From a virus, in the IMG/VR virus record IMGVR_UViG_3300043399_000151, positions 1-37,652 of that record: DNA of 37,652 bases. One strand, 5' to 3'. Both the position numbers and the translations under genes were made by a program. Below, piece by piece: positions 1,803 through 37,652 of this stretch. Positions within the stretch are counted from its first letter, which is position 1, and every line of letters begins with the position of its first letter. Under the pieces are notes generated by a model. The model searched no databases, was not told the DNA's origin, and saw only the letters and a program-made list of their open reading frames with translations.

Positions 1803-2999
1803 ATGTTCGGCATCAGCCTGGCGCGGATCAGCCTTTTGACCGGATCGTCTTTGGGCGGCGGCGTTGGAGTCAGCGCGACACTTGATCTTAATTTCCGAGG
1901 GCAAGGATACTCTGCTGCTATGGCTGGCTACACCTTCAACCAACTCATCGACTTCACCCGCACGACTGCCGGGACTTACGTTGACAGCACTGGCAAGATT
2001 GTCTCGACGCCTGCCTCGCGGAACCTACTTTTGGTGACGCAAGAACTTGATAACGGCGCTTGGACTAAATCAGGTTCTAGCATCACGGCGAACGCAGTTG
2101 CCGCGCCGGACGGAACGCTGACTGCCGATAAGATCAACGAAGATACCAGCTTTGCCGAACACAAGGCTTCGCAATCGGCCACTGTTGCAGCCGGAAGCGT
2201 TACGCTTTCAGTCTATGCCAAGGCGGCAGGGCGCGGCTTTTTGGCAATCCGCGAAAACATCAACGGGACGTTTGTAAACACGTTCTTCAACCTTGCTACG
2301 GGCGCGGTTGTCAGCACTGGTGCAAGCAGAACCTCTAGCATCTCTTCCGTGGGAAGTGGTTGGTATCGCTGTGCTGTTACAGCCACTAGTGCAGGCGGGT
2401 CCGTAAACTGCGGCTTTGACGTTTCGAGCAATGGATCTGACGTTGTTTACACCGGCGACGGCACCTCTGGCATCTACGTCTGGGGCGCACAGCTAGAGCA
2501 AGCCTCTGCCGCGACCGACTACACCCGCAACAACGGCGGCGTGTTCCCGCCGCGCCTAGACTACGATCCGGTCACGCTGGCACCCAAGGGGCTGCTGGTG
2601 GAAGAGCAGCGGACGAATTTGTTCACGTATTCGGAGCAGTTTGATAATGCTGCTTGGGCAAAGACTAACGTTGCGGTTACGGCCAACAGCGCCGCCTCGC
2701 CATCTGGAACGACAACCGCAGACACGCTTGCGGCTACTAGTGCAAATGGCACCGTAACGCAGGCGATCAGCACAACCGCGATTGCAATGACCTATTCGGT
2801 CTATCTCAAGCGCAAGACCGGAACTGGTGGTATCCAGATCACCGCAGACGGTTCGACTTGGGTAACACAGACAATTGATAGCACGAACTGGACGCGCTGC
2901 ATCGTGACGCAAACGGCGCTTGCCGGAACGACCAGCCCCGGCATTCGCATTGTTGCTAGCGGGGATGAGGTGTTTGCTTGGGGGGCGCAATATGAATAG
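1803..2999 (+). CDS. Tail fibre / adhesin, N-terminal part (split gene)
   Basis: A 398-residue protein starting at ATG 1803, three bases after the previous stop. It holds two tandem copies of a carbohydrate-binding-like beta domain. Copy 1 is at about residues 74-240 (RNLLLVTQELDNGAWTKSG to VYVWGAQLE-type end) and copy 2 at about 271-398 (TNLFTYSEQFDNAAWAKTN to VFAWGAQYE). Proteins with this architecture normally continue from WGAQ(L/Y)E straight into a domain beginning SFATSYIPT. Here that continuation lies 690 bases downstream at 3686 in another frame, with an antisense HNH gene between. The first TAG at 2997-2999 is therefore probably a new stop created by the insertion. Whether the truncated protein works alone, together with the second part, or after RNA splicing cannot be told from the sequence. 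Confidence 0.75.
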   Translation: MFGISLARISLLTGSSLGGGVGVSATLDLNFRGQGYSAAMAGYTFNQLIDFTRTTAGTYVDSTGKIVSTPASRNLLLVTQELDNGAWTKSGSSITANAVAAPDGTLTADKINEDTSFAEHKASQSATVAAGSVTLSVYAKAAGRGFLAIRENINGTFVNTFFNLATGAVVSTGASRTSSISSVGSGWYRCAVTATSAGGSVNCGFDVSSNGSDVVYTGDGTSGIYVWGAQLEQASAATDYTRNNGGVFPPRLDYDPVTLAPKGLLVEEQRTNLFTYSEQFDNAAWAKTNVAVTANSAASPSGTTTADTLAATSANGTVTQAISTTAIAMTYSVYLKRKTGTGGIQITADGSTWVTQTIDSTNWTRCIVTQTALAGTTSPGIRIVASGDEVFAWGAQYE

Positions 3000-3636
3000 C
3001 CCCGGCATGAACCCTAGTGTGGCAACCCCGGCAAAGGGTAATCAGGTTATCCAGCGCATTGTTTCGCAACCGACGCTCTGTTGTCGTTCCTTTTCCGTCG
3101 ATATGGTGAACGTGAAGATCGTCCTTTGTGCCGCAATACTGGCAAGTGCGATTGTCTCGCTCCAAAGCCTTTTCGCGGTTCCCGTCGAAATCGTAGTTAT
3201 CTCTGGCGCGCTTGGCGTATTCAGCAACCTTGTCACCGTTGGCTTTCAGCCAATCACGGATTTTGTTGACCTCTTTGACCCGCTGGCATTCGGGGCATCG
3301 CTTTTGTGGGCCGGAGCGGTATTCAAAATCATCGCCGCATTCGGGGCAAAACAAAATCGCGCCAACTTCGACAGCGCCACTTTTCCGCCGCAGATTGCGA
3401 AGGGCCTCGGTATTCTTCTGGGCGCGGTATCCCGGCATACAACTTTGGCAAGCCCGCTGGTGGCTCCCTGTCGGTTTGTAAGTGCTGCCGCAAACAACGC
3501 AATCGCGCACTTTAAAGCCGCTTCCGGTCTGCCCATGAGCGGCAAGCGCACAGAGTTTGCATCGCTTCATATTTGGAGATGTTCTGACAATCTGCTGCGA
3601 GCAATCTGGGCAAGTGATCGTTCCGTAAACCTTCAC
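2956..3636 (-). CDS. HNH homing endonuclease with three zinc fingers (antisense)
   Basis: A 226-residue protein from a GTG start at 3636, with GGAG seven bases upstream on the minus strand. Three CxxC...CxxC units occupy the N-terminal half (near residues 9-30, 45-65 and 94-115). A C-terminal HNH nuclease follows, with CQYCG, the catalytic-type HVHHIDG, an Asn in DNLITLC and the closing CRGCHTRVH. Such enzymes cut DNA and spread their own gene. The gene lies on the opposite strand to its surroundings, and its last 15 or so codons run into the 3' end of the fibre gene (44-base antisense overlap), so its C-terminus is partly antisense fibre sequence. It is the likely cause of the fibre gene split. 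Confidence 0.88.
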   Translation of the reverse strand: MKVYGTITCPDCSQQIVRTSPNMKRCKLCALAAHGQTGSGFKVRDCVVCGSTYKPTGSHQRACQSCMPGYRAQKNTEALRNLRRKSGAVEVGAILFCPECGDDFEYRSGPQKRCPECQRVKEVNKIRDWLKANGDKVAEYAKRARDNYDFDGNREKALERDNRTCQYCGTKDDLHVHHIDGKGTTTERRLRNNALDNLITLCRGCHTRVHAGAIHIAPPKQTPHPR

Positions 3637-3685
3637 TTTTCAACTCCAATCAATTTCTTTCGCAACATAGCAGGGAGTCGCAACA

Positions 3686-4225
3686 ATGGCTAGCTTCGCA
3701 ACGTCATATATCCCCACGCTCGCCTCACAGGTCACGCGCACGGCTGACGTTGCGACGATCACGGGGGCGAACTTCTCGCAGTGGTATAACCAGAGCGAGG
3801 GGACGTTTGTGGTGGAAGCCGCATCAGCCAGTGCAAGCCAAGACGGTAAGTTCCTATCACTTACGGACGGGACAGCCAGTGGCCAAAACAACAGCATTAC
3901 GCTGGATGTCGGATCGTCTGGAAAAACTCGGTTTTTTGTTACTACTTCTGGCACAGTTCAAGCTGTTTTCGTGAGTTCGGCAACTTATACGCCAAATAGC
4001 GTGATTAAAATTGCTGGTGCATATAAGCAGAACGATTTTGGCGGAACTACAAAAGGCGAAGCTATTACGACTGACACGACAGGTAGTGTGCCAAGTGTAA
4101 GCGTGATGGAGATTGGCTACCATCGGTATGGTTTACCGTTGCAATGGGTTAACGGCCATATCCGGTCTGTGCGCTACTATCCGACTAGGCTCCAAAATTC
4201 ACAGTTGCAGGCGCTTACGGCATGA
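3686..4225 (+). CDS. Tail fibre / adhesin, C-terminal part (split gene)
   Basis: A 179-residue protein with its own ATG and AGGGAG (3672-3677), eight bases upstream. It begins MASFATSYIPTLASQVTR, the standard continuation after the WGAQ(L/Y)E end of the preceding fibre domain. It then reads as a concanavalin/LamG-like beta-sandwich, with FSQWYNQSEGTFVVEA early and GHIRSVRYYPTRLQNSQLQ near the end, a typical C-terminus of this domain. Removing 2997-3688 would fuse the halves in frame (...AQYE-ASFATSY...). The available ribosome binding site suggests the half can be made as a separate polypeptide. It presumably takes part in surface recognition together with the first part. Confidence 0.75.
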   Translation: MASFATSYIPTLASQVTRTADVATITGANFSQWYNQSEGTFVVEAASASASQDGKFLSLTDGTASGQNNSITLDVGSSGKTRFFVTTSGTVQAVFVSSATYTPNSVIKIAGAYKQNDFGGTTKGEAITTDTTGSVPSVSVMEIGYHRYGLPLQWVNGHIRSVRYYPTRLQNSQLQALTA

Positions 4226-4228
4226 GGA
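4214..4228 (+). repeat. Imperfect direct repeat, left flank of HNH gene 4222-4764
   Basis: CTTACGGCATGAGGA here and CTCACGGCATAAGGA at 4753-4767 agree at 13 of 15 positions. Each copy encodes a C-terminal LTA, a stop codon and an AGGA element. The pair brackets the HNH gene, as expected if insertion duplicated or regenerated the fibre gene end and the ribosome binding site of the next gene. Confidence 0.6.
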
Positions 4229-4764
4229 AAATGAACTTCACGCCAGAGCGCATTGCTGCTTTTTGGGGCCGGGTTGATAAAACCAGCGACCCTAACGGAT
4301 GCTGGACTTGGCAAGGCGCTAAGTTCTCAAACGGATATGGCGCGTTCCAGTTGGGCGTGGGCAACACGGTTCGCGCCCACCGTATGTCATATGTGCTGCA
4401 CAATGGGTTTTTCGATGACGCGCTAGTGGTGTGCCACAAGTGCGACAACCGTGAGTGTGTAAACCCTGACCACCTGTTTGTCGGGACTAACGCAGACAAT
4501 TCTGCGGACATGAGTAGAAAGGGGCGCGCAGCAAGGCTCTATGGAGCCAAAAACGGTTGCTCAAAGCTGACTGAAAGCGCGGTTCTGTCAATCTATCAAG
4601 ACCCGCGCACTAACCGGGAAATCGCCGCTGATTATGGCGTGGCACCCTCACTGGTGAGCCTAATCCGTCACCGCAAGGTTTGGGGTGAGACGACCAAGCA
4701 CCTTCCGCCTCACGAACGACGCAAACCGGGAGCGGGCAGCAGTGCTGTTCGCCTCACGGCATAA
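4222..4764 (+). CDS. HNH homing endonuclease with C-terminal HTH
   Basis: A 180-residue protein whose ATG overlaps the fibre stop (ATGA); the ATG at 4231 is an alternative. The start CWTWQGAKFSNGYGAF and the block AHRMSYVLHNG, VVCHKCDNRECVNPDHLFVG are diagnostic of phage HNH endonucleases of the HNH_3 type (His at the first H, Asn in CVNPDHLF, His in DHLF). The C-terminal third (KLTESAVLSIYQ, then REIAADYGVAPSLVSLIRHR) is the usual DNA-binding helix-turn-helix. The gene sits exactly at the 3' end of the fibre gene, and its own end resembles the fibre end, which suggests insertion as a free-standing homing gene. It is probably translated with the late operon. Confidence 0.9.
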   Translation: MRKMNFTPERIAAFWGRVDKTSDPNGCWTWQGAKFSNGYGAFQLGVGNTVRAHRMSYVLHNGFFDDALVVCHKCDNRECVNPDHLFVGTNADNSADMSRKGRAARLYGAKNGCSKLTESAVLSIYQDPRTNREIAADYGVAPSLVSLIRHRKVWGETTKHLPPHERRKPGAGSSAVRLTA

Positions 4765-35371: not shown

Positions 35372-37652
35372 TGGGTTTTATCGTCGCTGGGATTGTTGGC
35401 CTTGCATCCATAATTGCACCGACGGCCATTGCTGGAGCCATCGGCGCTATTGGGATTACCGTAAGTGCTGCAACGATCACAGCCATTGGCGTGTCCTTGG
35501 CTCTGTCTGCGGTTTCCCAGCTTCTTCTGACACCGAAGGTGCCGGAAAGCCAACTGTCTCGCCTTAATGTTTCGCTTGACACCACAACACCGCGCAAAGC
35601 TGTGTTCGGCACTACGGCCTTGAATCTTGATTTGCGCTACCATGAGGCAAGCGGTGACGATCAAGAATATATTGATTACATCATCGCTGTCGCAGCGCAC
35701 AAAGTTAAGTCTATCGATGAAGTTTGGTTTGAGGAAAAGCAGGCTTGGACAGCTTCTGGTGGAGTGACCTCAACCTACGCCAATTACCTTTGGGTAGAAA
35801 CGCTAACTGAAGCCAGTGCATCATCGTATCTGACTGTCAATGCTGGTACTAAATGGGGTGCCAGTCAGCGCATGACTGGCTGCGCATTGGTGAAAATCCG
35901 CATTCGTCGTAGCGGCATCGACAAAGAGGTTGAAAGCCCGCTAGTCAACGCTCTGCCCAGTCGCGTCACTATTATCGGGGAAGGTGCGCCGCTCTACGAT
36001 CCTCGCAAGGATAGTACTGTAGTTGGCGGCTCTGGAACGCACCGGGCGGCCAATCAGGCAACTTGGGGGGTGTACACCAACCCAGACGATACCGACAATC
36101 CTGCGCTGCAATTGCTCTGGTGGCTCCTAGGGTGGAAAATCAACGATAAACTTTCGGTAGGTTGTGGGGTTCCTCCAGCCCGCATTGATCTTCAAAGCTT
36201 TATCGTGGCTGCCAACATTTGTGATGAAAATATAGCTTTGGCCAGCGGCGGTACGCAGAAGCGCTATCGAACTTCTGGGACGGCATCTGACTCTGATGAC
36301 CGTATGAATGTCATCAGCACATTTTTGGCCTGCATGAATGGGACGCTGCGCGATAGCAACGGCAAGCTGGCACTGACTATCATCAAGAATGATCTGTCAA
36401 ACTATGTCATGACACTTGATGATAATGACATGCTGGATGACTTTGAGTGGAGCCAGACTCGTGGCTTGACTGAAAGCTATTCCAAGGTCCGAGGCAGTTA
36501 TGTGGACCCATCACAAAACAGTCTATATCAGTTGGTGGATTACCCTGAGATAGAGGTAGTCGGGGGATCGCCTGACGGAATCGAGCGCGTGATGACGCTT
36601 GACCTTCCATATGTCGAGGACGGTCGCCGCGCACAGCGGATCGCCAAGCAAGTTCTCCAGCGCAATCAGTATCGCGGAACTTTTAGTGCTTCTTTTACGG
36701 CCAAGGCTTTGGGGTGCGACATTGGCGATGTGGTTCGTCTGACGTTTACGCCTCTTGGCTGGTCAAACAAACCATTTCGTGTAGTCAGCAAGGAAATCCG
36801 CTTTGATGGCCAAGTGCCACTCGTTCTGATCGAAGAAAATGCTGCAATTTATGCCTGGGATGCAGAGGATGTTGCACCTGTAACACCAGCAACTCCGACA
36901 ATTTATGACCCTTTGAAAAGCCCGATCATCAAGGGCATTACTGAAGCCAATGAATTGACGATCACTGGCTATCTGACAAATGAAGCGATCACAATTGCCG
37001 CTGATAGCCTAGGAAACGTGATTAGCTATAGCGGGGCCGTTGGTAGCTTCAAGGTTTACCAAGGCATCACAGATAAGTCTTCTCTTGCGTCATATAGCGT
37101 TGCTTCAACTGTGGATGCCACTGTAGCAATCAATGCTACGACTGGCGCGTACTCGGTCAGCAACCTTGCAGCCGAAAACGGGAGTGCAACTCTGCAAGCC
37201 GTTTTTGGTGGTGTTACGCTGCAAAAGGTTTTGAGCCTTTCTAAGGCCCGCCAAGGAAACATTGGCAACATCGGCCCTGCTGGGTTGAACGCTTATCTCA
37301 CCAAGGAATCCGTGCAGGTCTTTGCTTATGCCAATGGCGGCGTGGTTTCTTATGCGCCAACTGCGGGTGAGTTTAAGATATTTAGTGGCAATACGGATGT
37401 CAGTAGCAATTTCTCGCTTTCTACCGTAGACAATCCGCAAAGCCTGATCGTGGTTTACTCTGGCCGCAACTACCAAGTCACTGGCGGGTTTGATGCGGCG
37501 GAAGACAATGCCACGGTGACGATCCGCGCTACCGGCTCTGGCGACTACGCCGGGGTGACATTGGACAAGGTAATGTCACTGTCCAAGTCCAAGGGCGGTT
37601 ATGAGATTGTTTCCTCGCTGCCTTCTACCGAGTTGTTTGAAGGTAGGGTCGT
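35371..37652 (+). CDS. Tail-tip / central fibre protein (gpJ-like), N-terminal part
   Basis: The ATG overlaps the previous stop (TAATG). The frame is open to the end of the window and continues at base 3, giving 853 residues in all. The first ~50 residues are strongly hydrophobic and Gly/Ala-rich (GFIVAGIVGLASIIAP and GIGITVSAATITAIGVSLAL-like stretches), perhaps able to insert into membrane. The body has the gpJ-like order: RKAVFGTTALN-like region, QNDAT-type NPALQLLWWLLGWKIND, SDSDDRMNVISTFLACMNGT, LDDFEWSQTRGLTESYSKVR and GCDIGDVVRLTFTPLGW. It should form the tail tip and contact the receptor. Confidence 0.9.
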   Translation, partial: MGFIVAGIVGLASIIAPTAIAGAIGAIGITVSAATITAIGVSLALSAVSQLLLTPKVPESQLSRLNVSLDTTTPRKAVFGTTALNLDLRYHEASGDDQEYIDYIIAVAAHKVKSIDEVWFEEKQAWTASGGVTSTYANYLWVETLTEASASSYLTVNAGTKWGASQRMTGCALVKIRIRRSGIDKEVESPLVNALPSRVTIIGEGAPLYDPRKDSTVVGGSGTHRAANQATWGVYTNPDDTDNPALQLLWWLLGWKINDKLSVGCGVPPARIDLQSFIVAANICDENIALASGGTQKRYRTSGTASDSDDRMNVISTFLACMNGTLRDSNGKLALTIIKNDLSNYVMTLDDNDMLDDFEWSQTRGLTESYSKVRGSYVDPSQNSLYQLVDYPEIEVVGGSPDGIERVMTLDLPYVEDGRRAQRIAKQVLQRNQYRGTFSASFTAKALGCDIGDVVRLTFTPLGWSNKPFRVVSKEIRFDGQVPLVLIEENAAIYAWDAEDVAPVTPATPTIYDPLKSPIIKGITEANELTITGYLTNEAITIAADSLGNVISYSGAVGSFKVYQGITDKSSLASYSVASTVDATVAINATTGAYSVSNLAAENGSATLQAVFGGVTLQKVLSLSKARQGNIGNIGPAGLNAYLTKESVQVFAYANGGVVSYAPTAGEFKIFSGNTDVSSNFSLSTVDNPQSLIVVYSGRNYQVTGGFDAAEDNATVTIRATGSGDYAGVTLDKVMSLSKSKGGYEIVSSLPSTELFEGRV
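37526..37652. repeat. Terminal direct repeat, right copy (circular closure)
   Basis: Exact copy of 1-127; see the left copy. It lies within the gpJ-like gene and keeps its frame across the join. Confidence 0.95.

Follow-up and report, generated by a model that had tools for sequence, protein, structure and literature searches.

Introduction

Homing in T4-like phages is accompanied by co-conversion of the flanks, and in these phages mobE splits nrdA and mobA splits topoisomerase genes (PMC2988022). The described system closest to the locus reported here is the nrdA-a / mobE / nrdA-b arrangement of phage Aeh1, in which an HNH homing gene lies inside a phage gene, no intron is involved and the two parts are separate cistrons; the gene so divided, that of ribonucleotide reductase, is essential for the phage (PMC2988022). 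T4 genes 39/60 with mobA, and gene 43 of phage 25 with a seg gene, offer a further likeness in that gene fission has occurred beside a free-standing endonuclease (PMC2988022). Nuclease genes have also been reported at the boundaries of phage genetic exchange (PMC10448857). Here we describe a tail-fibre gene divided by an HNH gene on the opposite strand. The window is the whole stretch of viral DNA that was analysed, 37,652 nucleotides in length, and related loci are designated by L numbers.

Results

The window carries tailed-phage genes, among them terminase, portal, major head protein, tape measure and central tail fibre J. Its ends, positions 1-127 and 37526-37652, are identical over 127 bases, and the frame of central tail fibre J, running from 35353, exits the window end, with an apparent C-terminal part at 30-407. 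Because of the end identity and of the J frame lying across the ends, the sequence is probably that of a complete, circularly permuted genome.

The 5′ half of the fibre gene (1803-2999, plus strand) encodes 398 amino acids with carbohydrate-binding-type beta-sandwich domains, and ends with WGAQYE followed by a TAG codon. The 3′ half (3686-4225, plus strand) encodes 179 amino acids, starting MASFATSYIPT, in which a disordered lead of 21 residues precedes one laminin-G/CBM40-like domain. The sequence-only reading had seen here one gene that stops after WGAQYE and restarts at 3686, and both frames were confirmed. In the profile of PHROG 5939, a tail protein of 801 positions, the 5′ half matches positions 418-591 (E=1.8e-51) and the 3′ half positions 586-761 (E=7.5e-29), so that the profile match covers the two-domain region; since the two matches are contiguous, the halves follow each other within a single known protein. 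They are thus adjacent domains of one family, as that reading had supposed, and not unrelated domains. The gene is contiguous in relatives and forms two cistrons in the window, with neither intron nor intein. The named-phage matches of the 3′ half are cyanophage tail proteins of 33-37% identity.

Between the halves lies, as the sequence-only reading had stated, an HNH endonuclease gene on the minus strand (2956-3636; 226 amino acids, GTG start), which matches Pfam PF01844 (E=2.5e-8, above the cut-off) and PHROG 1271 (E=5.4e-20). The motif residues HHID, N and CxxCH are intact in the window protein and conserved across the aligned family; the protein also has several zinc-ribbon-like CxxC pairs and a Pfam double zinc ribbon match. 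As befits a free-standing HNH gene, related genomes present occupied and empty alleles at one site. The C-terminal tail of the protein that is antisense to the fibre (2956-2996), to which attention had also been drawn, is not conserved, and the HNH proteins of L023 and L025 end at the insert boundary without such a tail.

The inserted element extends over 689 bases, from 2997 to 3685; the stop codon of the 5′ half lies at its left edge, and its right edge abuts the start codon of the 3′ half. To its left stand the WGAQYE codons (2979-2996, plus strand), W-G-A-Q-x-E being invariant in 74 aligned intact homologues, an invariance that is partly imposed by the fixed bases of the search pattern. 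When the flanks of occupied loci are joined and aligned with empty alleles, the insertion point falls between the GAA codon of WGAQxE and the next codon. These alignments are free of gaps at the best-matched loci (L006, L020 and L023/L042), and other occupied/empty pairs show small compensating gaps. Split loci have ATGGCN at the position of GCNGGN in the empty alleles. The 692-base deletion proposed earlier (2997-3688) does restore one frame, but it leaves a linker one codon shorter than that of nearly all relatives, and an element of 689 bases fits better. Similarly, the flanks at 2986-3000 and 3679-3694 resemble each other in the window as had been claimed, but the resemblance is missing from the other split loci. 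A target-site duplication at these positions was considered and rejected, the resemblance being without counterpart in relatives.

A search with the 3′ half returned relatives with an uninterrupted gene (L002, L004, L005, L007 and L009-L011), which read through WGAQ.E or a close variant into the second domain, as well as four more split loci (L003, L006, L008 and L012). The intact junction WGAQxE-xxx-F.TSYIP occurs in at least 120 viral stretches, and 123 junctions were collected; a search for uninterrupted relatives had been suggested by the sequence-only reading. The viral collection was also scanned for the restart pattern of the split loci, namely ATG, two codons and F.TSYIPT (M..F.TSYIPT), and every one of the 10 stretches found in viral contigs adjoins an HNH gene. 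Two ORFs without an HNH gene, the arrangement named beforehand as evidence against an insertion, were found in none of them, and HNH-free relatives are uninterrupted. In bacterial genomes the sole match of the scan, L027, lies within a long frame of Prevotellaceae and was rejected as fortuitous.

The antisense HNH gene is carried by the window, L003, L012, L017, L019, L021, L023, L147, L149, L150-L153 and L155, with 45-62% identity between lineages. The loci of this family were gathered with the family alignment as query; with the single window HNH sequence as query, no match was obtained in the viral collection, and alignments were needed. Among named phages the only matches, of about 30% identity, are in haloarchaeal viruses. 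In the viral collection 14 loci (about 10 of them distinct) have an HNH with 50% or more identity to the window protein, and in all of them it is antisense in the fibre linker, 13 at the site of the window and one shifted 15 bases downstream, whereas HNHs at most 46% identical lie in the fibre linker at none of the six loci checked. The shifted case (L025, 905-1700; WGAQLEVGSFP before the stop, MGSSYIPT at the restart) indicates that the insertion point is not absolutely fixed within the conserved linker. A variant site was also observed in L156, with ...NAQLE ahead of the stop.

In five contigs (L006, L008, L018, L020 and L022) the identical base is occupied by an HNH gene in sense orientation. 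The HNH domains of the two invaders differ, that of the antisense gene being PF01844 and that of the sense gene PF13392 (HNH_3). Of the sense clade, delimited by an identity of 60% or more to its query, all five loci are at the fibre site, against none of the 25 loci checked with an identity of at most 48%. This clade is about 40% identical to T5 HegF, and the free-standing HNHs of the T5 F-TflVI / HNH_3 type are the family of the sense-strand invader; however, the genes overlapped by the T5 copies bear the annotation hypothetical protein or spanin, and the fibre-site clade, whose members are at least 60% identical to one another, was found only at the fibre site. In L006, L008 and L020 the stop of the fibre and the start codon of the HNH gene share bases, in the form GA-ATG-A, an overlap that resembles the UAAUGA of T4 nrdA/mobE. 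Judged from their sequences, two unrelated HNH families in opposite orientations converge on one base of the conserved linker.

The window has a second HNH gene, of the HNH_3 type (4222-4764, plus strand; PF13392, E=1.3e-10), which overlaps the stop codon of the 3′ fibre half as ATGA. The C-terminal half of the fibre therefore has HNH genes on both sides in the window. This second gene is missing from nine related split loci, where other genes directly follow the fibre, and we take it to be a separate insertion, not found at the related loci checked.

Inserts measure 484-493 bases with a sense HNH and 581-698 with an antisense HNH in relatives, and are HNH coding almost throughout, about 50 bases being spare in the antisense inserts. 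Ahead of the 3′ half of the window a Shine-Dalgarno-like AGGGAG (3672-3677, plus strand) has a duplex energy of -7.7 kcal/mol, within the strongest 1% of the 20-mers of the insert, which bears out the earlier claim that the downstream half has its own ribosome binding site. Such a signal precedes the 3′ half in most split loci; it is weak in L003/L012, and weak or absent in L021. The 3′ halves whose ends were read all have a start codon and are open to the usual C-terminus, and each hit of the site seems to have left both halves of the fibre gene translatable.

For the antisense HNH gene, a scan of the window for consensus sigma-70 promoters gave nothing ahead of it. A possible extended −10 element, TGCTATGTT (3664-3672, minus strand), conforms to the motif TGnTAnnnT, which 8 of the 10 distinct antisense leaders contain, compared with a rate of 12% in shuffled sequences, and which is weakly suggestive of a candidate promoter.

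The flanks differ in codon usage between split and intact loci. The FATSYIPT codons are AT-ending in split loci, their GC3 relative to the following 30 codons being −0.25 there and +0.19 in intact loci (Mann-Whitney p=9e-7, with loci that are not independent). The GAQ codons before the insert are GGAGCGCA[AG] in six of nine split loci (L003, L006, L008, L012, L020 and L021, which include both HNH types) against 2 of the 122 intact junctions listed; in the window these codons (2982-2990) are GGGGCGCAA. Co-conversion, selection for translation initiation or site immunity may each account for this recoding.

Several comparisons between loci bear on mobility. L013 and L020 share 92% identity confined to the HNH insert, about 25 bases upstream and 124 downstream, their immediate flanks being unrelated; such an island has the signature of a moved cassette. 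L018, with a sense HNH, and L023, with an antisense HNH, are 99% identical over a stretch that begins one base ahead of the restart codon and runs to +104, and therefore the same 3′ flank carries different elements. Further downstream the C-terminal module itself has been replaced, in L003 (5001-5519), L012 (5001-5525), L017, L019 and L023. Between L016 and L012 the identity is 94% as far as +115, no relation is seen from there to +462, and 88% identity follows, and L023 is identical to L017 to +103 and different beyond. The breakpoints of the swaps thus lie 100-120 bases after the restart codon, in phages 88-100% identical on both sides. Values of dN/dS for the 3′ halves say little about selection, owing to mosaic modules and saturation at synonymous sites.

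In the AlphaFold2 model of the intact homologue L002 (74 sequences, mean pLDDT 87) two beta-sandwich domains are seen. Mapped onto this model, the break comes after residue 175, where the last strand (166-176) of the first domain is ending; a linker with pLDDT <50 and the second domain follow. The 3′ half of the window was modelled with a pTM of 0.75, residues 1-21 having pLDDT <50 and the remainder being folded, and its Foldseek matches are CBM40 and laminin-G domains (E ~1e-7). The location of the break between modelled domains, together with the folded 3′ half, makes each half a predicted folding unit, and what would be lost is the covalent link. The 5′ half is related to the head spike fibre Rcc01080 of RcGTA (PDB 6tb9, E=7.5e-31), in which the junction is unsplit within a single chain (WGAQLEAGA..IPT..TR.AD). 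E217 gp45, Pa193 gp46 and tail fiber protein gp17 (9occ), solved relatives of the upstream fibre domain, are likewise single uninterrupted chains.

Discussion

We propose, with considerable confidence, that insertion of homing endonuclease genes at a fixed linker site makes the fibre gene a gene in pieces, with two cistrons. Comparison among loci shows that the gene is split, that this recurs at one and the same site and that two families are involved; it also shows the empty alleles, the break at a domain boundary and the signals for initiation. In the model, a free-standing HNH gene would insert on the opposite strand into the inter-domain linker WGAQxE / xxF[AP]TSYIPT. The left edge of the element supplies the stop of the upstream half, and its right edge the ribosome-binding site and the ATG-GCN start of the downstream half. 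The endonuclease would very probably cut or nick the uninterrupted linker of other phages, and repair from the occupied copy would copy the element into the cut linker. The linker, conserved as it is in phages that are otherwise unrelated, could serve both as target and as the short homology for repair. HNH_3, a second and unrelated family, uses the same base in the sense orientation. Cleavage and homing by the HNH proteins are what we infer from these arrangements, and both halves would be translated and be present together in virions. The models show no means of keeping a loose C-terminal domain on the fibre, since the predicted break lies in a flexible linker.

That the insertion inactivated the fibre and left the 3′ half as a decaying remnant is unlikely. 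The gene structure implies that the covalent link between the two domains is gone, and a phage may tolerate selfish genes such as those of HNH proteins even when they are costly; however, decay does not agree with 3′ halves that are all open to their usual C-terminus behind a start codon, nor with the exchange of intact C-terminal modules into genes already split (L016/L012 and L023/L017/L019). Quite improbable is that the fibre had been two genes beforehand and that HNH genes then entered between them, although an order of events of this kind has been put forward for phage 25 and is considered for gene 43 of T4-like phages (PMC2988022). The restart-pattern scan gave no two-ORF locus without an HNH gene, and the nearest empty relatives, L088 for L023 and L114 for L020, are uninterrupted genes. 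A self-splicing intron, whose removal from the mRNA would give a single full-length fibre in the manner of the ICP1 tape-measure gene, would fit the fact that group I introns often house HNH genes and that spliced phage structural genes are known (PMC10448857). We regard it as very improbable: no group I or II intron core around the HNH ORF was matched by Rfam in the window region and eleven related loci, the HNH frame nearly fills the sense inserts and leaves only some 50 bases in the antisense ones, each 3′ half has its own ATG and most a Shine-Dalgarno sequence, which would be needless under splicing, and the site is the only feature common to the two unrelated inserts. Finally, ribosome bypassing or frameshifting across the insert, for which T4 gene 60 is a precedent with 50 bases bypassed near the mobA insertion, is barely conceivable for a gap of 484-698 bases with a gene inside and independent initiation signals at the 3′ halves.

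Within the proposed homing insertion, the reason for keeping the split is a separate matter. It may be, though we put this forward as doubtful, that the split is kept because the C-terminal receptor-binding domain becomes an exchangeable separate module, whose exchange the HNH genes promote; a cut in the linker would then start a repair by which a new C-terminal module could arrive along with the HNH gene. The insertion site does adjoin the point of receptor-module swapping. However, intact L088 shows a like change of module past the linker, so that module exchange there is general and is not proof of HNH action. Should module shuffling of this kind prove true, two selfish gene families would be drivers of host-range module shuffling, and the locus lends itself, as a natural system, to the question whether the exchange of receptor-binding domains is driven by homing endonucleases. 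If the two-chain fibre works, then a virion fibre tolerates fission at its linker.

In the titles and abstracts of the open literature we found no described case of a fibre gene split by an HNH gene; subscription journals may hold such reports. The homing endonuclease cases of PMC10448857 are interrupted tape-measure and terminase genes with splicing, and the term 'tail fiber' is absent from its text; the fibre locus is nevertheless like those exchange boundaries in that swaps of its C-terminal module set in about 100-120 bases beyond the insert. T4 39/60 and phage 25 gene 43 differ from it in being single lineages, with the endonuclease gene in sense orientation and enzymes as the divided products. 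In comparison with Aeh1 nrdA, the host gene here is a structural gene of receptor type and not an enzyme, the HNH gene is antisense, and the break falls in a flexible linker, whereas the halves of the known split enzymes reassemble; moreover, two HNH families share the one site in the fibre, across many unrelated phages. Genes in pieces made by endonucleases are known from a few phage enzymes, and here the target is a host-recognition protein. What this locus adds to the known systems is that the host gene encodes a fibre, that the HNH gene is antisense and that two families converge on a single conserved linker.
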